Shown in pieces: positions 2,045-30,834 of a stretch of 64,000 bases of DNA (its first letter is position 1; each line of letters begins with the position of its first letter). Origin of the DNA: Halorhabdus sp. BNX81 (lineage in GTDB: Archaea; Halobacteriota; Halobacteria; Halobacteriales; Haloarculaceae); assembly GCF_029229925.1 (NCBI RefSeq), contig NZ_CP107254.1, positions 310,001 to 374,000 on the forward strand, in the 5' to 3' direction. Position numbers and translations under genes: made by a program. The notes under the pieces were generated by a model. It saw nothing but the letters and a program-made list of their open reading frames with translations, had not been told where the DNA came from and made no database searches.

Positions 2045-2544
2045 CTCTCAGCAGCATTGCCATCCCAGTGCTTGCCCTTGGGACCAACGCTGTAACGTGC
2101 CCAGCCTCGACCGCGCTGTGGGCAAGCCATTGTGTCTCTGGACGTCCGTGATGGACGTGATATATGAAATAGGAATGATATACACGTGGTAGCTGTTGGC
2201 GTCTTGAATTCGCGAACTGCCTCGACGACCGCTGAAACGGCTGTTATCACGTCCGATACCGTTCATCTGCTAATCACGATGCCGGACAGCGCCGAAATCC
2301 GCCAGTAGCAACCTTCTGATATATAACTGTCAGAATCGCTAGTGTGGGTGTTCACGTGCCTTCCCATATTATGTCCGATCTTCAATTTATATCTGGTGTA
2401 TCTCTATCTTCAACTGGGTTCTACTCTAATTATCATTTGTTTATTTGTTTTTTCCTCTGTTGAATATACGTATGGGAATTTAAGTGTGCGTAGCGTTTGT
2501 AAGTATCCGAGAAGCGGTTGCCGGACACAACATAGAAACGAACC
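2045..2544. other. 500-bp intergenic region with AT-rich promoter segment
   Basis: I see no gene here. The segment from about 2330 to 2490 is much more AT-rich than its surroundings and contains several T-runs on the + strand, which would suit termination of the exchanger transcript. A TATA-like GAATTTAAG near 2475 lies about 70 bases before the TasA-like start. The candidate ORFs across this region are short and have non-haloarchaeal composition. Confidence 0.5.
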
Positions 2545-3084
2545 ATGATGGATTTCGATATCACACTCACGAGACGGCGCGTACTGGCAAGCATACTCGT
2601 CATCGGACTCGCTGCGGCGGCGGCCGGTGTCGGGACGTTTGCGTTGTTCAACGATGAAGCGGCTTCGAACAATAACATCGCTGCCGGAAACCTGGAACTT
2701 GACTCAGTTAGCGGGAGTTTCAATGTTAGTGGTCTCTACCCCACACAAAGTACGGATCAATCGATTACGACGACGTATACGGCCGGGGTCCCGGCCGACT
2801 TGAGTCTCGAAGTGGATGTCACTGATGACTCCTCCTTCTCGGACCAACTCGACGTCGAATCGGCGGACTTGCTCGTCAATGGCACGTCAGTCGGGAGTTT
2901 CAGCGGGGGATCCACCCTGTCGCAATTGGCGGGAAGCTACGATGACGTCGCGACCCTGTCAAGCGGCGAGGACGTTCCTGTCACTTTGAATGCAAACCTG
3001 ACACTCGGTCGGGATACTGACAACAGCTTTCAGGGTGACGACGTCGACATCACAGTGACGTTCAACGCCACCCAACAGACGTAA
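2545..3084 (+). CDS. TasA/CalY-like secreted protein with SipW-type signal peptide
   Basis: This 179-residue exported protein begins with TRRR followed by a long hydrophobic helix and a GTFALFNDEA segment, then NNNIAAGNLELD. That is the pattern of SipW-cognate signal peptides found in TasA and camelysin (CalY), the Bacillus biofilm-fibre proteins. The mature part is Ser/Thr/Asp-rich and predicted beta-strand. A dedicated signal peptidase gene follows after 59 bases, which strongly suggests an enzyme-substrate pair. By analogy it may form surface fibres or matrix. That role is inferred, and sequence identity to Bacillus TasA is probably low outside the signal region. Confidence 0.75.
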   Translation: MMDFDITLTRRRVLASILVIGLAAAAAGVGTFALFNDEAASNNNIAAGNLELDSVSGSFNVSGLYPTQSTDQSITTTYTAGVPADLSLEVDVTDDSSFSDQLDVESADLLVNGTSVGSFSGGSTLSQLAGSYDDVATLSSGEDVPVTLNANLTLGRDTDNSFQGDDVDITVTFNATQQT

Positions 3085-3143
3085 CGTCCCCACATTCGCC
3101 CCGCTGGCGGCTGAGTGGTACGTGATTCAGCAAAGACGCATTG

Positions 3144-3686
3144 ATGCATCCAGCAGACATCGACCGCCGACAACTCGGGACCATCGCGGTAGTCGTTGCT
3201 TTCCTGCTCGTCTTCGGCGCCGTTTTCGTGACGACGGTCCCACAGCTTGCGGGCGCGGATCACAGCTACGTCGTCCTCTCCGACAGCATGTCGCCGAGTA
3301 TCGACGCCGGATCGGTCGTTTTTGTCAGTGAAGTTCCCACGGATTCCATTGAGGAAGGGAACGTCATAACCTACGTCGCCTCGGAGAACGCCGATGGGAC
3401 GACGCGGATCACCCATCGGGTCGTCGATGTCGAAACAGCGGACGGGAACCGACAGTTCCGCACGAAGGGCGACGCCAACGACGAACCAGATGGGCAACTC
3501 GTCGCCGCCTCGGCTGTCATCGGGACCGTCCAGTTTCACATCCCCTTGCTCGGGTATGTACTCAACTTCGCCAGTTCGACCACGGGAGTGATCGCACTCG
3601 TCATCGTCCCGGCGGTTCTGCTGGGAGTCTCGGAAGCGTGGTCGCTGTACGTAGACGCCAGCAACGGGGGGGACGAGCGGTCGTGA
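3144..3686 (+). CDS. SipW/archaeal-type signal peptidase I (S26B)
   Basis: The 180-residue membrane protein has an N-terminal membrane anchor, then SDSMSPSI, which holds the catalytic serine, then RITHRVV, in which His replaces the bacterial Lys general base, and a conserved GDAND box. It ends in a second hydrophobic segment. The Ser-His arrangement is characteristic of the eukaryotic/archaeal and SipW class of signal peptidase I. It sits between two genes whose products carry SipW-like signal regions, so it is probably their dedicated processing enzyme. The ATG at 3144 is preferred to the TTG one codon upstream. Confidence 0.85.
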   Translation: MHPADIDRRQLGTIAVVVAFLLVFGAVFVTTVPQLAGADHSYVVLSDSMSPSIDAGSVVFVSEVPTDSIEEGNVITYVASENADGTTRITHRVVDVETADGNRQFRTKGDANDEPDGQLVAASAVIGTVQFHIPLLGYVLNFASSTTGVIALVIVPAVLLGVSEAWSLYVDASNGGDERS

Positions 3687-4600
3687 ATCCACGAAAAGCT
3701 CTCGTCGTCGCGGTGATCGTCGGTCTGTTCGTCGCCGGCAGCGGATTCACTGCCGGCGCGACGACCTATGGGGTATTTTCCGACGCAGACACGGGCACTG
3801 GATCGATACAGGCGGCCGCATCCTTCGACGTGCCGGGTGATGGTCCCTGTGTGGACACGAACGGAAACGGTGAGTGTAACCCGGGAGACGCTCCGGTCGA
3901 CCCGGATGAGCTGAGGACCTTCGACAACGCAAGTGCCGACCTGGTGATTCCGGCGAGCGTCGGAGATATCTCCACGAAGAAAGCCGACATATCGATCACG
4001 GCGAATACTATCACTTCCGAGGTAGATCTGACGACGAAAAACGCCAGGATCGACTTGCACGCTGGTGGTGGTGGCATCGATCTGGCCGGCACGAACCTGA
4101 CACGGAACGGTGGCAACGGTGCCATCACTCTTCACTCGGCGGGCCCAGTGACGCTGTCGAATGCCGGGGTCAGCACGAAGGGGACTGTGGCTGTCTCGGC
4201 GGATGCCGGACTCGACCTCGACGGGATCAATATTGACACGAACAAGGAAATCACGCTCCGTGCGAGGACGATCTCGGCACACAATGCGGTATTGACCAGT
4301 AAAACTCGAGATATCGTCCTGGGAGCGACGAGGATGGGTGGTGGTGCGTTGACTGCGTCCGGGGCGGCCATCACTGTCGAAGGTGGGAACGGACAGGTCA
4401 CACTCGAATCTGTCGGGAATATGTCCCTCGACGAGGCGACGATCACAACAGCGAACCGCCAGCCGACGGCCAACTTGACCAGCAGCGAGGCGATACTCGA
4501 CGTAACAGCGACAGAGATTCTTGGGAAATACACCACCATCGCGTACACGCCCGCGAACGTCACTATCGAGCCACCGGACAGCGAATCTGTGGTCGGGTAG
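3683..4600 (+). CDS. Exported beta-repeat (FHA-like) protein with SipW-like signal region
   Basis: The GTG at 3683 overlaps the signal peptidase stop codon, giving tight translational coupling. The product is 305 residues. A hydrophobic N-terminus leads into TTYGVFSDADTGTGSIQAA, the same F-x-D signature as the upstream TasA-like protein. A DTNGNGECNPGD segment follows, resembling a Ca2+-binding EF-hand/dockerin loop. The rest is a series of short strand-forming repeats alternating Thr, Val, Ile, Gly and Asn, as in right-handed beta-helix adhesins. It is likely a cell-surface or matrix component processed by the adjacent peptidase. I do not recognise a specific family. Confidence 0.7.
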   Translation: MNPRKALVVAVIVGLFVAGSGFTAGATTYGVFSDADTGTGSIQAAASFDVPGDGPCVDTNGNGECNPGDAPVDPDELRTFDNASADLVIPASVGDISTKKADISITANTITSEVDLTTKNARIDLHAGGGGIDLAGTNLTRNGGNGAITLHSAGPVTLSNAGVSTKGTVAVSADAGLDLDGINIDTNKEITLRARTISAHNAVLTSKTRDIVLGATRMGGGALTASGAAITVEGGNGQVTLESVGNMSLDEATITTANRQPTANLTSSEAILDVTATEILGKYTTIAYTPANVTIEPPDSESVVG

Positions 4601-4679: not shown

Positions 4680-5045
4680 ATGGCAACGGCCCGCCCGGAG
4701 TGGCTCCACCTCGAGGGCTCGCCCTTCGACGAGGAGCGCTTCCGGAACGTGTGGTTGCTCGCGCTTGGGACCTACGGCGTCGGCGATATCGTCACGACAA
4801 TCACGATTGCCTACTTCAGCCGAGTTCACGTCGAGTCGAACCCGCTCGTCAACCTCGCGATCGATCTCTTTGGCGGCGGTGGGTTTCTCGCGCTGAAGTT
4901 GCTCGTCCTGTATGCCTGTCTCGGCATCAGCATCTGGGCCGGTCGCCTCGAAGACGATTATCTTCTGTTTTACGGCCCGCCGATTTTCCTGGCGATCGTC
5001 GGTACCGTAATCACCGGCATCAACCTCGGGTTGCTGTTTTCCTGA
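4680..5045 (+). CDS. Small haloarchaeal membrane protein of unknown function
   Basis: This 121-residue protein has an acidic N-terminus (residues 1-22) and about three or four hydrophobic segments. The first of these carries GTYGVGDIVTTITIAYFS, and the SRVHVESNPLVN loop comes next. It lacks catalytic motifs I can identify. Small orphan membrane proteins of this shape are common in haloarchaea. A TATA-like TTGATATTTGAG lies about 45 bases upstream. It is monocistronic, facing the convergent MATE gene. Confidence 0.65.
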   Translation: MATARPEWLHLEGSPFDEERFRNVWLLALGTYGVGDIVTTITIAYFSRVHVESNPLVNLAIDLFGGGGFLALKLLVLYACLGISIWAGRLEDDYLLFYGPPIFLAIVGTVITGINLGLLFS

Positions 5046-8852: not shown

Positions 8853-10799
8853 TCACTCCTCGCCGCCCTGCCACTGCATCTCGCCAGTTCGGGGAGCGTG
8901 AAAGCACGGCCACTTGACGTTCCCGGCCCGAGAGTCCGGGTCCGGCGCGGAGAGGTTTTTCGTGTTGATGAACGATTGCTCCCGCCTGTCCGTTATCGGG
9001 ATCATCGGCAGATCCTGATGGGAGACCCACGCGAGCTCCTCGACAATCGGGGGCACATCATCGCCACGAGCTGTCGAGAGATCTTCGAGTCGCTGCTGGA
9101 TGTCGACTGACATGGTGCCGTTGCCGTCCATGGCCAGCACCTCGATTTCCATGCCCTCCGCTGCACCGGGGTAGTCGTGGGCGTTCCCATTCACGCGCCC
9201 GAACACCCAGTTCAGCGGGAAGTACGGGAACGACGACCGCGCGCCACCCGGCGACCACGGCCTTGCAGCCATCTTGAACTCGCCGCTTCCGACAACGTTG
9301 TTGATGTTGTTGACGCGGTTCAGTCGTGCGTCGAATCCTGCCTGGGTTAGCTGGGAAACCACTGCCTGAATCACTTTTATCCAGTCGCTCCAGCCGCTCG
9401 GTACCGAAATGTCGAAGGAAACGGTGTCGCCGTCCATGGTCCAGCTACCATCGTCGTTTTTCTCGTAACCGGCGTTTTGCATGATTTCGGCGGCTCTCTC
9501 CGGGCCACCTTGCATCGCACCGAACGCCTCGGTGTCGATCCATTCGTCCTGGACTTCCGGGGATATCGCGGCCGGAGTCGGGAACGCGGTCTTGACCCGC
9601 GGTGCGACGGCATTCACTATCGCCTCACGATCGATGGCATGTGTGATGGCTTGTCGGACCGGCCGCTTTGAGATATGTGGCGCAATCTCCGGATTATGTT
9701 GCGGCAACAGGCCCACGCCCCAGTTGCCGGGGAAGGTGTACTCCTGCCAGTGGTCCGAGAGCGCCGTTTTGATATTCGCCGGCGTAAACACACTCATCAC
9801 TGTGTCCACCCTATCGGACTGCATCACGTCCCACTTGGCCTGGTTCCCCGGGTAGGTCAGGAACCGGTACCGCTCGAAGTTGACGTTGCCGGCGTCGGGG
9901 TGCTCGGGATTGCGCTCCATGATGTACTGTTCTGCGTCCATCTCCTGGAGGCCGAAGATACCTGAGACGTAGTGGGGCTCGTTCGGAGCCATCGCTTGGA
10001 TGTCCTCCCCGACGCCCGCTTCGCCGTCTTCCCAGAACCGCTGGTACAGTTCGTCGTACGGAGGGGCCATTTTGGCCTGCTGCAGATTCGAGAAGATCGC
10101 GAACTCGAAGATTGTCTTGTTGACCCGCTTGTTTGTCTCGATCACGAGCGTCTTCTCGTCAGGTTCGTCGAAGGAATCAAAGACATACGCGAACGGTGCC
10201 CCGGTCGCGAGGTTCATCACGATGTTTGCCTTGACGTCCTCGGCTGTGACCTCGTCACCGTCGGCGTATTTGTGCGGGTCTCGGATGTCCAGGGTGATCG
10301 TCGTGCCGTCGATCGACCAGTTTTCGATGAGTTGTGGGATCCAGACGTTGTTCTCCAGATCGTACTGGACGTAGCGCTCGTAGGCGAGCCACCGTCCCCA
10401 GATGTTCGGCCAACCGGCGTACTGGGTGTTCCAGTCCAGGATGTCCATCGAACGGGCGGCGACAGATTTAACCGTGACGTCGTATATCGTCTCTTTCTCG
10501 GTTGGTTCTTCTTCCTCGGTCGTCTCCGCTTCTGTTTCAGTCGGCGTGTCGGACTCGGTTTCAGTTGGTGTGTCCGTTTCAGTCTCCGTCGGTGTGTCGG
10601 TCTCTGTAGGTGTGTCCGTGTCGGTCTCTGTAGGTGTGTCCGTGTCTGTTGACGTCGGTGTGTCCGTTTCAGTTCCTGTCGGGGTACTCGTTGGTGTCCC
10701 CGTGTTCTCTTCGTTATCCGGGCCCAGCGTGGTGCACCCTGCCCCGGCACTCACTCCGACCCCCGCGAGACTGAGGAACAATCGTCGCGTCGTCTGCAT
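8853..10799 (-). CDS. ABC transporter substrate-binding lipoprotein (SBP_bac_5, peptide/nickel type), orphan
   Basis: The 648-residue protein has a Tat motif (TTRRLFLSLAG) and a lipobox ending at C22, so it is exported folded and lipid-anchored outside the membrane. A Thr/Asp/Glu/Pro-rich linker of TDTPTE-like repeats spans roughly residues 27-95. The remainder is a dipeptide/oligopeptide-binding domain (DIRDPHKYADGDEVTAEDV, and RPVRQAITHAIDREAIV). The start at 10799 puts the twin arginines at residues 5-6. An in-frame ATG at 10928 would add 43 acidic residues before the Tat signal. No permease or ATPase gene is nearby, so its transporter partner must be encoded elsewhere. Confidence 0.85.
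   Translation of the reverse strand: MQTTRRLFLSLAGVGVSAGAGCTTLGPDNEENTGTPTSTPTGTETDTPTSTDTDTPTETDTDTPTETDTPTETETDTPTETESDTPTETEAETTEEEEPTEKETIYDVTVKSVAARSMDILDWNTQYAGWPNIWGRWLAYERYVQYDLENNVWIPQLIENWSIDGTTITLDIRDPHKYADGDEVTAEDVKANIVMNLATGAPFAYVFDSFDEPDEKTLVIETNKRVNKTIFEFAIFSNLQQAKMAPPYDELYQRFWEDGEAGVGEDIQAMAPNEPHYVSGIFGLQEMDAEQYIMERNPEHPDAGNVNFERYRFLTYPGNQAKWDVMQSDRVDTVMSVFTPANIKTALSDHWQEYTFPGNWGVGLLPQHNPEIAPHISKRPVRQAITHAIDREAIVNAVAPRVKTAFPTPAAISPEVQDEWIDTEAFGAMQGGPERAAEIMQNAGYEKNDDGSWTMDGDTVSFDISVPSGWSDWIKVIQAVVSQLTQAGFDARLNRVNNINNVVGSGEFKMAARPWSPGGARSSFPYFPLNWVFGRVNGNAHDYPGAAEGMEIEVLAMDGNGTMSVDIQQRLEDLSTARGDDVPPIVEELAWVSHQDLPMIPITDRREQSFINTKNLSAPDPDSRAGNVKWPCFHAPRTGEMQWQGGEE
10500..10690. 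repeat. Degenerate short tandem repeat encoding the TDTPTE linker
   Basis: The + strand shows repeated copies of a GTCGGTGTGTCCGT-like unit with CTCTGTAGGT variants, corresponding to Thr-Asp/Glu-Thr-Pro repeats in the binding protein. Such acidic, Thr-rich stalks are typical of haloarchaeal surface lipoproteins and are likely glycosylated. Copy number could vary between strains by slippage. Confidence 0.75.
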
Positions 10800-10961
10800 A
10801 TCCGCCGCTAGGTCTCCGTCCCGTGATGAGTCGGTCTCCCGTTGGTTTGCCGGGTCGGGTTGGTCCACATTGGATGCCTTTTCCTCTTCCCGTGACAATT
10901 CCGGGTGGACGTCGCCATCTGTCACCATGATGGGTCATCCTCTCACAACATTGGCTTGAAA

Positions 10962-26696: not shown

Positions 26697-27251
26697 TTAC
26701 CGTTCGGTCTGCTCGGCGACGTTGAGTGCCGGCTCCCGGCGGGCACACTCGCGGATAGCTTTAGCCCCGTCGTCGCCATCGTTCACTGCTGTCCGGCAGC
26801 CCTCCAGCAGGTGATCGAGCACGGCCCGGTTGTCCTCGTACCGGACTCGGCCGTCGTAGCCGACGACGCACTCGGCGAGCCCACCATCGAGGAACGCCGT
26901 GGCGATCGACCGCTTGCCCTCGTCACTTCCGTTCCCGTCTCCGTCACCCTCGAACGCGCTACAGCAGCAACTCACCACAACCCGGTGTGGCTTTCCCTCG
27001 ACACTGGTGACATCGTCAGCGTTGATCCGTCCGAGTCCCGTCCAGGCTCCCGGCTCGCCGTGACCGAAGTAGACCACGAGGTCGCGTCGACGTCCGAGCG
27101 CGTCGAGGGCGTCCTCGGCGTACCAGGTATCGGGATAGCCCTCGGTCACGGTACAGCCGACGGCCCGCAACCGATCGGCCCACGATCGAAGCGGCGTGAG
27201 GTACCGGGGATGGTAGAACCCGAGCAGGAGCACCTGCTCAGAACGTTCCAT
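26697..27251 (-). CDS. Caspase-fold (clan CD, CHAT/C25-like) cysteine peptidase candidate
   Basis: The 184-residue protein has the two motifs of clan CD peptidases in correct order: VVYFGHGEPGAWTG with the likely catalytic His64, then RVVVSCCCSAFEG with the likely catalytic Cys in C95-C97, both after hydrophobic strands. A later SIATAFLDGGLAECVVGYDG resembles the helix-strand after the Cys in CHAT/gingipain folds. It is the last gene of an overlapping operon: its start lies 14 bases inside the 3' end of the 1198-residue protein gene. Related proteases often activate cell-death effectors. Here substrate and role are unknown, and the fold call is from motifs only. Confidence 0.65.
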   Translation of the reverse strand: MERSEQVLLLGFYHPRYLTPLRSWADRLRAVGCTVTEGYPDTWYAEDALDALGRRRDLVVYFGHGEPGAWTGLGRINADDVTSVEGKPHRVVVSCCCSAFEGDGDGNGSDEGKRSIATAFLDGGLAECVVGYDGRVRYEDNRAVLDHLLEGCRTAVNDGDDGAKAIRECARREPALNVAEQTER

Positions 27252-30200
27252 TCGTGACCAGTCGATCTGGATCGCCCGCGCCGAAGGACCCGTCGTCGGT
27301 CGGGTCTTCCAGCGCGATCACGTACTCGCGCTGATGGCCACCGTTTCCGTCCGGCGTAAAGCCGTTCAGCGTCACGTTCTCCGCGGTGATCTCGACGGTC
27401 CACAGGCAGTCTTCCCACCAGCCGGCGGTGCCGGTATTGACGTAGAACCGGCTGTTGTCGGTGCCGTCTTCCATGAGCTTCGGGACGTGGGTGTGGCCGA
27501 TGATGAGACTCGCGTCGAGCTGGCGGATGGTCTCGACGACCGCGCTCTCCTCGAACATCGCGCCGTCCTCGATCGACGGGCTCTTGACGTCGCTGTCGAC
27601 GATCGGTCGCCATTCGCCGGGGTCGTAGTAGGGGGCGATCGCGTGGACGGGGATCTCCTCGCCGAATGCGGTGATCGTCTCGCCTTCGAGGCTGGCGTCC
27701 TCACCGAAGACATCCTCGAGGGTATCGCTCAACACGTCGATCGGTTCGCCGACGAAGTTGCTCGAGAACTTCCCGAAGTCGTTGTTCGCGTCGCAGTTCC
27801 AGGGGTCGAACTGGTGGCCGTGAGTGATCAACACGTCCTCGCCGTCGTAGGTCGTCGTCACGAAGTCATAGACTTCCAGGTCAGGGAACCCGTGGTCCTC
27901 GTATGCCCCGACGACGTGGGGGTCCTCGTAACTGGCGTCGTGGTTGCCACGGACTTTGACGAACCGCCGGGGTGACTCGAACTTGTAGAAGTCCTCCGAG
28001 ACGGTTTCGTGGACGGTCGGATGGGTAGCGACGATGTCGTCGACTTTGTCAGCCGGCTCGTTGGCGGTGAGGTCGTTGTCGATCCAGAACTCCTCGCTGT
28101 CGCCGTTGAAGACGACCGTCCACTCGTAGCCGTTCGCCTCGTCGGCAGCGTAGTCCGAGAGCACGGACTCGACGAGATCGGCGTTCGCGCTGAAGTGATC
28201 GAGGCCGGCGTCGATGTCGTCCTGGTCCTCCATGTGGAGGTCGCTGAAGACGACGATCCCACGGTCCTCGGCCGGCGGCGAGAGCTCGCGGATCTCGACG
28301 CGCTGGTCGCACTCGAAGCTCCGGAAGTCGGTGGGCCAGTGCTTGTAATCCACCTGGTCCGGATTGACCAGCGAGCCGAGCACGACGTAGGCGACGGCGA
28401 GGAAGGGGAGACTGGCCGTCGCGAGCGTGACGACGAGCGCGAGCTTGCCGGCCGCCAGCAGCGGCGCGATCACCTTGTCGCGAACGAAGTCAAAGGCGTT
28501 CGAGACGCCTTTTGCGAACCACTCGGCCAGTTGTTCGAGCACCGGGCCGCCGAGGCCGGCCGCCCACTCGATGAGATCCAGCAGCGAGTCCAGGGCGGCC
28601 TCGACGACCTCCATCACCCAGCCGAAGATGTCGAAGGCTCGATCGGCGGCCCACAGCACGACCTCGAAGGCCGTCACGCCGACTTTGAGCAGCCCCTCCA
28701 GCAGTTGCGTGAACGTCTCCTTGCCCGCCTCGACGATCGCACCCAGGACGTCCCCGAGCGCGACGCCGATGTTCCGGAGGGCTCGGTAGAGTCGCCCGAG
28801 AACCTGCTGGCCGGCGTCCGTGATGGCCTCGAACAACTCGCGGATGCTCGCGCCGACGTCCCGGAGTGCATCGACGGCCGTGCTGAAGACGTTGCCCGGG
28901 TCCGTCAGGAGTGTAACCAGGATCTCCCCGAGGCCGATGCCGATCGCGAGCAGCGCGCCGAAGCCGGCCCGCATGATGTCGATCGTCCGGCGGGCACACC
29001 ACGCGACGAGTTCCCCGATAGCCACGCCGATGTCGATCAACGCCTGGAACGCCGTCTCCAAGACCTCGCCCACGCGCTCGACCGTGTCGACGACCCAGTC
29101 GAGGATGTACCAGATCGACCGCCCCAGGTCATAGAGGTGCTCGATGAACTCTTCGAGGACATCCAATCCGAGGTTCAGCCCGGCCGCCAGGACGTCCCGG
29201 ATGCGCGCACCGACGTCCAGCAGCGTGTCGATCCCCTCCCGGAGGAAGTCCCGCGCTCGATCCCACAGCGTTTCGAGGATGTCACCGACGGCCCCGCCGG
29301 CCGCGAGGATGCCGTCGAAAACGGCGCGAGCGGCCATCCTCCCCCAGTCGGCCGCGCGCTCGACGAGGTCGACCAGTCCCTCGCCGATCTCGACGACGGC
29401 CTTGCCGAACTGATAGAGCGCGTCGGTCGTGAGTTCGCCGACGGTCGCGAGCGCGTCGAGTAGCCCCCGAACCGCGGCCGCGCCGGCATCTCGTGCCCAC
29501 GCCACGAGGTCGGCGACCGATTCGCCGGCCGCCACCAGTGCCTCCATCACCGCACCGACGGCCCACTCGCCCAGATCCAGTGCCGCGGCGAAAAGATCCT
29601 CGGCGGCGTAGACGAGTTCCCGGAGCAGGGAGACGGCGTCGCTGAAGAAGTCACTGGCTTCCCGGTGGAGGTATTCGAGCAAGTCACCGAGGGCGATCCC
29701 GCCGTCGAGCAAGCCCTGGAGGACCGACCGGGCTTTATCGAGGGCGTTGTTCGCGGCCTTCTGGATCTGGTCGATGATCGCACTGAGTCCCTGCTCGACG
29801 GCGGCCTTGGCGAGCTCGTATGCCTCGTCGACGAAGTCCTTCAGGGTCTCGATGATCTCCTCGCCGAGATGGGTGAGCTTGTCCTTGACGATTTCGATGA
29901 TGTTGTTTGCGCGTTCCTCCGCGTAACTCACCATGTCGACGAGCGTTCGCGCCGCGACTTTCAGGACGTCGACGCCGATCGACCCTGCGGCGACGACGAT
30001 ATCCGTGAGCGTTTCGCCCGTCTTTCTGAGCGCGCGAACGATACTCCGGAAGAAGGATTTGCCGATGTTGAATGCCTCTCTCAGTATCCCCTTGATCGCC
30101 TTCCCGGCCGACAGCAGCCCCTTGACGATCTTCTTGATGGTCGAATACGCTTCCTGGGCGATGCCCGCGATGATGTCGGCGACAGTCTTTACGCCGTCGA

Positions 30201-30834
30201 GTAACGTCTCGACAACCGAGTTGATCCGCCGCTGGGCGTAGTCGACGACGTCTTTGACCACCTCGCCGAAGGATTTGCCGGCCTCGACCACTGAGTCGAC
30301 GACTGTATTGACCGCCTCCGCGACGCTCTTGCCCGCCTCCTTGATGTCGTTCCAGGTGTTCTGGAACCAGCCGTCGTATTCGACGTCGATGTTGCCCTTG
30401 CGCTTCTCGCGACGGTAGCCCAGCCCGACCAGCGAGAGCCACTCCGCGATCGGCTTGGTGTCGCCGCCTTCCTCGAAGTAATCCCGGAAGACGGTCGAGG
30501 CATCTTCGACCGTCAGTAGCCCGGCTCCCGTCACGAGTGCGTCCTCCCGGCCGATGTCCCGGAAGGATCTGATCACCTCGCGGCGCAGCCGTTCGTCGCC
30601 GCGGCGACACGCGTCCCGCAACACCCGGCCACTCACGCCGCCGGCCGGCTGGGCCCGCATCAACCCATCGAGGACCGTGCGTCCCTCCCGGCCATCACGG
30701 CCGAGACCGGCCTCGACGACGTCGAGGTAGTTTTCCTCGGGAAGTTCCCGCGCTCGAAGGTTCGCGGCGACCGATTCCGGGCTCCCAGCCCCGAGTTCCT
30801 CGGCCATCCGCTGGGGGTCGATCTGGTCCGTCAT
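27238..30834 (-). CDS. Giant amphipathic-helix repeat protein with C-terminal metallophosphoesterase
   Basis: The 1198-residue protein has three parts. Residues 1-150 are a helical, charged domain. Residues ~155-790 are continuous predicted amphipathic helix with over twenty copies of a loose motif, [hydrophobic]-G-x3-5-hydrophobic-x-[DE]-hydrophobic (examples DIGVAIGELVAW, NIGVALGDVLGAI, DVGARIRDVLAA), and residues ~792-823 form a strongly hydrophobic segment. The C-terminal third is a calcineurin-like phosphoesterase with all metal motifs: SDLH (D865, H867), NGD (D912), GNHD (963-966), HGHQ and GHTH (1113-1116). GDSEEFW resembles LpxH-type pyrophosphohydrolases. The ATG overlaps the stop of a 46-aa gene (ATGA). 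I do not know this architecture. Confidence 0.8.
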   Translation of the reverse strand: MTDQIDPQRMAEELGAGSPESVAANLRARELPEENYLDVVEAGLGRDGREGRTVLDGLMRAQPAGGVSGRVLRDACRRGDERLRREVIRSFRDIGREDALVTGAGLLTVEDASTVFRDYFEEGGDTKPIAEWLSLVGLGYRREKRKGNIDVEYDGWFQNTWNDIKEAGKSVAEAVNTVVDSVVEAGKSFGEVVKDVVDYAQRRINSVVETLLDGVKTVADIIAGIAQEAYSTIKKIVKGLLSAGKAIKGILREAFNIGKSFFRSIVRALRKTGETLTDIVVAAGSIGVDVLKVAARTLVDMVSYAEERANNIIEIVKDKLTHLGEEIIETLKDFVDEAYELAKAAVEQGLSAIIDQIQKAANNALDKARSVLQGLLDGGIALGDLLEYLHREASDFFSDAVSLLRELVYAAEDLFAAALDLGEWAVGAVMEALVAAGESVADLVAWARDAGAAAVRGLLDALATVGELTTDALYQFGKAVVEIGEGLVDLVERAADWGRMAARAVFDGILAAGGAVGDILETLWDRARDFLREGIDTLLDVGARIRDVLAAGLNLGLDVLEEFIEHLYDLGRSIWYILDWVVDTVERVGEVLETAFQALIDIGVAIGELVAWCARRTIDIMRAGFGALLAIGIGLGEILVTLLTDPGNVFSTAVDALRDVGASIRELFEAITDAGQQVLGRLYRALRNIGVALGDVLGAIVEAGKETFTQLLEGLLKVGVTAFEVVLWAADRAFDIFGWVMEVVEAALDSLLDLIEWAAGLGGPVLEQLAEWFAKGVSNAFDFVRDKVIAPLLAAGKLALVVTLATASLPFLAVAYVVLGSLVNPDQVDYKHWPTDFRSFECDQRVEIRELSPPAEDRGIVVFSDLHMEDQDDIDAGLDHFSANADLVESVLSDYAADEANGYEWTVVFNGDSEEFWIDNDLTANEPADKVDDIVATHPTVHETVSEDFYKFESPRRFVKVRGNHDASYEDPHVVGAYEDHGFPDLEVYDFVTTTYDGEDVLITHGHQFDPWNCDANNDFGKFSSNFVGEPIDVLSDTLEDVFGEDASLEGETITAFGEEIPVHAIAPYYDPGEWRPIVDSDVKSPSIEDGAMFEESAVVETIRQLDASLIIGHTHVPKLMEDGTDNSRFYVNTGTAGWWEDCLWTVEITAENVTLNGFTPDGNGGHQREYVIALEDPTDDGSFGAGDPDRLVTNGTF

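Follow-up and report, generated by a model that had tools for sequence, protein, structure and literature searches.

A stretch of 64,000 nucleotides (the window; positions 310001-374000 of a single-contig, 2.83-Mb Halorhabdus genome; G000, C1) encodes a three-gene operon on its plus strand, the products of which are, in order, a protein of the TasA/camelysin family (G1), a signal peptidase of the SipW/ER type and an exported protein with a predicted beta-helix body (G3). The reading that we favour, with a probability of roughly 0.55, is that the operon specifies a donor-strand-exchanged surface filament of the TasA type and that G3 is its dedicated terminal subunit, a cap or a tip.

G1 occupies 2545..3084 (179 aa), the peptidase 3144..3686 (180 aa) and G3 3683..4600 (305 aa, GTG start), all on the plus strand. 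The stop codon of the peptidase gene (TGA, 3684-3686) overlaps the start codon of G3 (3683-3685); four nucleotides, GTGA, are common to both genes. The peptidase likely starts at ATG 3144, the listed TTG at 3141 lying one codon too early, and a family alignment was used for G3, where GTG 3683 is the likely start in preference to 3638. An earlier note had described two exported products with an F-x-D motif flanking a Ser-His peptidase, the second of them overlapping the peptidase stop codon; apart from small corrections of coordinates, this module is confirmed at 2545-4600, and the motif follows a hydrophobic stretch both in G1 (LFND, residues 34-37) and in G3 (VFSD, residues 31-34). A TATA-like element, AATTTAAGTG (2477..2486, +), lies in an AT-rich region approximately 60 nt upstream of G1, and the GC content of the intergenic leader is 0.476, as against about 0.6 in its surroundings. 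ATTTAAGTG (2478-2486) recurs in two further Halorhabdus loci (L040 and L045), again 5' of the leading TasA gene, which suggests that a single promoter may drive the whole operon.

G1 was matched over the whole domain by the Pfam profile PF12389 (Peptidase_M73; 2.3e-8, 34.5 bits against a cut-off of 22.5), with residues 11-178 aligned to profile positions 4-192, and it also passed the NCBIfam model for a SipW-dependent signal, TIGR04088 (1.2e-6, 28.5 bits against a cut-off of 19). When a profile of 24 family sequences was compared with all PDB sequences, B. subtilis TasA (5OF1, 8AUR) was retrieved at 4e-11 and the archaeal AbpX at 1.2e-4; the alignment with TasA extended over the TasA N-terminal region. 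G1 is not an orthologue of the Bacillus protein, as it scored 26.2 bits against the NF046066 equivalog, for which the cut-off is 450. The AlphaFold2 model of G1 is a jelly-roll beta-sandwich (pLDDT 87.6), which Foldseek paired with TasA (5OF2; TM 0.58, probability 1.00) and which VIA aligned with TasA at Z 8.0 over 124 residues; because other beta-sandwiches match TasA in this Z-score, with other jelly-rolls reaching 9.5, the family claim is founded on sequence, and the fold agrees with it. The TasA-type identity first proposed for this product is thus borne out by the Pfam profile, by the class of its signal peptide, by the family profile and by a predicted fold that is TasA-like rather than unrelated.

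The signal of G1 is predicted to be of the Tat type (TRRRVLA) and to be cleaved at A33|L34, which places Phe at P2'. A twin-arginine motif was present in 37 of the 38 haloarchaeal TasA-type proteins tested and in none of three from other archaea; to judge from these motifs, haloarchaea would seem to have transferred a TasA-type fibre subunit to the Tat route. The mature N-terminus of G1, LFNDEAASNNNIAAGNLELD (2644..2703, +), is a candidate donor strand, and its 20 residues are loose in the AlphaFold2 monomer (pLDDT 55-58), as expected of such a strand.

The peptidase matched TIGR02228 at 1.3e-34 (119 bits against a cut-off of 51.85) and fell below the Bacillus SipW equivalog NF046067 (104 bits against 190). 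Its catalytic dyad consists of Ser48 (SDSM; codon 3285-3287) and His91 (THR; codon 3414-3416), and S48, H91 and D110/D116 were invariant across ten homologues; the model score and the invariant dyad uphold its description as a Ser-His, SipW-type enzyme. Alignment places Phe at P2' in both putative substrates (A|LFND in G1, G|VFSD in G3). TasA, which has Phe at this position, is cut poorly by the P-type peptidase of E. coli and is cut by SipW (PMC10269814). The module peptidase is not the sole signal peptidase of the genome, since the genome encodes a second ER-type enzyme (520.7 kb), and two S26-like matches, both weaker, were found near 2.4-4.0 kb; it may be the one enzyme that processes G1 and G3. 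The second ER-type peptidase (519-522 kb; L058:3900-5070, minus strand) has a long C-terminal extension, and its gene lies directly upstream of that for another exported or membrane protein, a different pair resembling peptidase and substrate.

No Pfam or NCBIfam family matched G3, and a search of a viral collection gave no match. Homologues were found by single-sequence search in 12 of 195 genomes, its own included, and 62 of the 392 genomes of the order matched a G3 profile, either in the domain or in its N-terminus; iterated profile searching drifted to TasA through the common signal region, and separate family models were used instead. The AlphaFold2 model of G3, built from an alignment of only three sequences, is a right-handed beta-helix, or beta-solenoid (pLDDT 86, pTM 0.83), with the helical domain at 3920..4576 (+). 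Foldseek by itself returned no hit of significant E-value to this model, and the assignment is based on the model together with a second comparison by VIA, in which EtpA (Z 20.9, rmsd 2.8 A, 225 residues aligned), HxuA (20.5) and HMW1 (19.4) ranked above carbohydrate enzymes (Z at most 16.8). These closest folds (Z 19-21) are two-partner-secretion (TPS) adhesins, and the likeness is one of fold that does not imply homology; unlike them, G3 has no recognised TPS domain and carries a SipW-type signal for its delivery, in an archaeon. EtpA binds the tips of flagella and thus offers an example of a beta-helix adhesin at the end of a filament (PMC10284417). The only haemagglutinin-type signal was a sub-threshold haemagglutinin repeat in a G3 homologue (L039). 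Ahead of the helix, residues 58-69 form an EF-hand-like loop, DTNGNGECNPGD (3854..3889, +), which fits the EF-hand loop pattern; D58, G61 and G63 do not vary among nine G3 homologues, and the loop may bind Ca2+. The earlier note had seen in this protein a beta-helix-like product with a possible Ca2+ loop rather than a TapA, and it proved right as to the loop and as to the fold, which is predicted to be a right-handed beta-helix and not an Ig-fold body.

Ahead of the beta-helix, 21 residues are disordered in the model (pLDDT 41-45), and the mature N-terminal tail of G3, VFSDADTGTGSIQAAASFDV (3773..3832, +), is likewise a candidate donor strand. The tail VFSDADTGTGSIQAAASF scored 9.1 bits against a profile of TasA N-termini; none of 300 shuffles did as well, and 3 of 300 did so when FxD was held fixed. 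This likeness is modest in the G3 of the window, and the tail of one homologue (L044) falls within the shuffles; in most homologues the likeness to TasA continues beyond FxD, as G-[ST]-[IV]-x-A. A TasA-like mature N-terminus is a trait of TapA, and G3 has it (VFSDADTGTGSIQAA), as do its homologues, weakly in some cases. The search with TIGR04088 did not report G3 itself, and three homologues (L039, L045 and L041) passed that model at 22.7-25.9 bits.

The order TasA-SipW-G3 is kept in seven other genomes (L039-L045); in L046, G3 lies apart from the SipW operon of its genome. Without exception, a SipW-type peptidase and TasA were either both present (20 of 33 genomes) or both absent (13 of 33). 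The G3 domain has two kinds of front end, one with a SipW-type signal and a TasA-like tail, the other with pilin-like or other N-termini; TasA and SipW were found in all 11 genomes with tailed G3 as against 9 of the 22 with other N-termini only (Fisher p 0.0016, a value that is indicative, as the genomes are related). Neighbourhood and co-occurrence together thus bear out the proposed association of the peptidase with both exported products. The pilin-like fusions (..VQIGAILLFGFLVIALSTYQ..VVPQ..) were seen in L156, L159-L161, L163, L165, L167 and L173; some of them carry Ig-like domains, and the beta-helix domain has the appearance of a portable haloarchaeal surface module.

Scanning the genome collection with G1 alone gave no matches at first, and a scan with an alignment of SipW gave 80 SipW-like loci; a TasA-type gene adjoins most of these, in haloarchaea, other archaea and bacteria. 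Of 56 haloarchaeal loci, 45 have an exported ORF after SipW, 31 of them with the exact 4-nt overlap; the non-overlapping ORFs were chosen with the use of the motif, and only the 31 overlapping ones are free of that bias. The C-terminal parts of these third-position proteins vary, comprising beta-helices, PKD/Ig domains (L070, and L113 from an actinobacterial assembly), repeats (L068, L071) and acidic tails (L075-L094). Several pass TIGR04088, and several from other genera have little in common beyond the FxD site. In L062, a PKD gene lies immediately before sipW. In Halorubrum, Halobellus and others (L075-L118) there are larger clusters of TasA and SipW genes, which encode several proteins of 250-790 aa with a TasA domain.

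Most of the related TasA-SipW operons adjoin a gene for a stalked protein (L042:7080-7895, minus strand; L065:5561-6391, plus strand; others in L039-L057), in which a stalk rich in Thr/Pro or in Asp links an N-terminal membrane segment to a TasA-like domain at the C-terminus. The protein ends in ..LPxxTGNEIQSD..F, has no Pfam match and bears a TasA-like signal without FxD; it could be an acceptor-only filament anchor. Its gene is absent from the genome of the window and from two others (G004, G006), and the stalked anchor was rejected as a part of the present module, the only other match in the genome being an unrelated lipoprotein. A 121-aa membrane protein encoded at 4680-5045 (+), without a family match, adjoins nearly all of the related TasA operons examined (35-93% identical). 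It was also rejected as a module part, being present in Haloarcula genomes that lack a TasA match; it may be an old positional landmark or an unknown partner, and we treat it as a presumptive landmark. Elsewhere in the window, a gene at 27238-30834 (-) encodes a protein of 1198 aa in which, read by eye, a very long region of amphipathic helical repeats is fused to a calcineurin-like phosphoesterase domain at the C-terminus, and tandem repeats of 24-42 bp at 10534-10682 encode the Thr/Pro/Asp/Glu-rich linker of a lipoprotein-like peptide-binding protein (8853-10928, -).

The operon had been likened to the tapA-sipW-tasA operon of Bacillus and its amyloid fibres. That picture of the fibre is outdated; by cryo-EM, TasA fibres are donor-strand-exchanged filaments of globular subunits and not cross-beta amyloid, and N-terminal residues 28-38 of each TasA complete the next subunit (PMC9674648). 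The mature N-terminus of TapA (AFHDI) resembles that of TasA (AFNDI), and TapA has been proposed to donate the first strand and so to start TasA polymerisation (PMC9674648, PMC10151520). The Halorhabdus operon and that of B. subtilis both combine a TasA-family subunit and an ER-type SipW with another exported protein of the SipW type, whose mature N-terminus is TasA-like (PMC9674648, PMC10151520), and both are single, tight units with overlapping genes; they differ in that the Halorhabdus order is tasA-sipW-third, that the third product has a beta-helix and an EF-hand-like loop in place of the Ig fold of TapA, and that G1 is shorter than B. subtilis TasA and has a twin-arginine signal. The earlier suggestion of an archaeal TasA module holds as to its presence, given the family membership of G1, and is not new in itself; archaeal TasA homologues and the TasA-like pilus AbpA of Pyrobaculum had been reported, in work cited in PMC9674648 and PMC10151520. 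The bundling pili of Pyrobaculum (AbpA) and Pyrodictium (AbpX), as cited in PMC9674648, PMC10151520 and PMC11952670, are likewise archaeal TasA-like donor-strand filaments; the Halorhabdus filament is predicted from genes and, unlike those described in these citations, would be haloarchaeal, its subunit bearing a signal of the Tat type and its beta-helix partner being encoded in the operon. The sipW-calY-tasA operon and CapP of B. cereus also join TasA/CalY subunits and SipW to a third, non-TapA partner, and like B. cereus several relatives of the Halorhabdus operon carry two TasA genes; a beta-helix partner is not among the features of the B. cereus operon in the parts of the reports consulted (PMC13082335, PMC10151520).

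We propose a model based on donor-strand exchange, in which G1 would be the repeating subunit, exported probably by Tat and cut by the Ser-His peptidase of the operon at A|LFND, an event that would free its N-terminal strand to complete the beta-sandwich of the next subunit. The tail of G3 would give its strand to a G1 subunit. Because G3 combines a TasA-like free tail with a closed beta-helix body that has no acceptor groove, it should be able to donate a strand and unable to accept one, and would therefore end the filament; it would be found at one end only, as an initiator or a cap, at the cell-distal tip or the cell-proximal base, and would present its adhesin-like beta-helix there. The resulting fibre may also have a role in a matrix or biofilm. 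Family membership, gene order, predicted folds, the likeness of the tails and the co-occurrence of tailed G3 with TasA and SipW support the model. It is weakened in that recognition by the peptidase could by itself account for the common cleavage motif, that the stalked candidate anchor is absent from this genome, that the tail likeness of G3 is modest, and that several third-position proteins of other genera are alike in little more than FxD.

Two other accounts of G3 start from the same evidence. It could be a TapA-like assembly factor, the tail of which starts or chaperones the polymerisation of G1 while the beta-helix is a stable body and not an adhesin, and we hold this possible but doubtful. 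TapA plays such a role in B. subtilis and is unconserved even within Bacillus (PMC10151520), and the third-position proteins are alike only in their exported N-termini and differ in their C-terminal parts, as this account would have it; the beta-helix domain, however, is also borne by surface proteins, pilin-like and other, of TasA-free genomes, which suggests a surface role of its own, and the folds nearest to the body of G3 are adhesins. We consider it unlikely that G3 acts on its own as a secreted adhesin or matrix protein which uses the peptidase of the operon, and the N-terminus of which is a cleavage motif and not a donor strand. TasA-type sites with Phe at P2' are cut by SipW and poorly by the P-type peptidase (PMC10269814), so that sharing of the motif would explain part of the likeness, and the separation of G3 from the SipW operon in L046 fits as well, but the likeness reaches past FxD in most homologues (G-[ST]-[IV]-x-A, and the shuffles with FxD fixed) and the tail is predicted to be unstructured. 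As for G1, PF12389 bears the name Camelysin metallo-endopeptidase, and G1 might on that account be a camelysin-type surface protein or peptidase that forms no filaments. This is very improbable, as the profile retrieved only fibre proteins (TasA, AbpX) among relatives of solved structure; a protease was rejected outright, because G1 contains no histidine at all and therefore no HExxH zinc site.

If the terminal-subunit reading of G3 is extended to its relatives, archaeal and some bacterial TasA-type filaments might have exchangeable end pieces, the gene that overlaps sipW encoding a donor-strand-tagged terminal subunit with a freely swapped C-terminal part, and the stalked, tethered TasA domain providing an acceptor-only anchor at the opposite end. 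We offer this extension tentatively, as a good deal less probable than the model for the Halorhabdus operon itself; if true, it would give archaea their own equivalent of pili tipped with adhesins, assembled without chaperones. Neither TasA-SipW pairs nor TasA-like pili of archaea are new; a literature search that covered few subscription papers found no description of a haloarchaeal third subunit that combines a beta-helix with a TasA-like tail, or of a recurring third gene that overlaps sipW and has exchangeable bodies. TasA-type filaments with donor strands are known in Bacillus and in a small number of archaeal hyperthermophiles. With its three genes the operon is a compact system from a haloarchaeon, the predicted fold of its candidate terminal subunit is of a known type, and sister genomes provide a natural comparison, the same beta-helix domain being borne there on TasA-like or on pilin-like N-termini; whether the third gene encodes an end piece of the filament thereby becomes a directly testable question.
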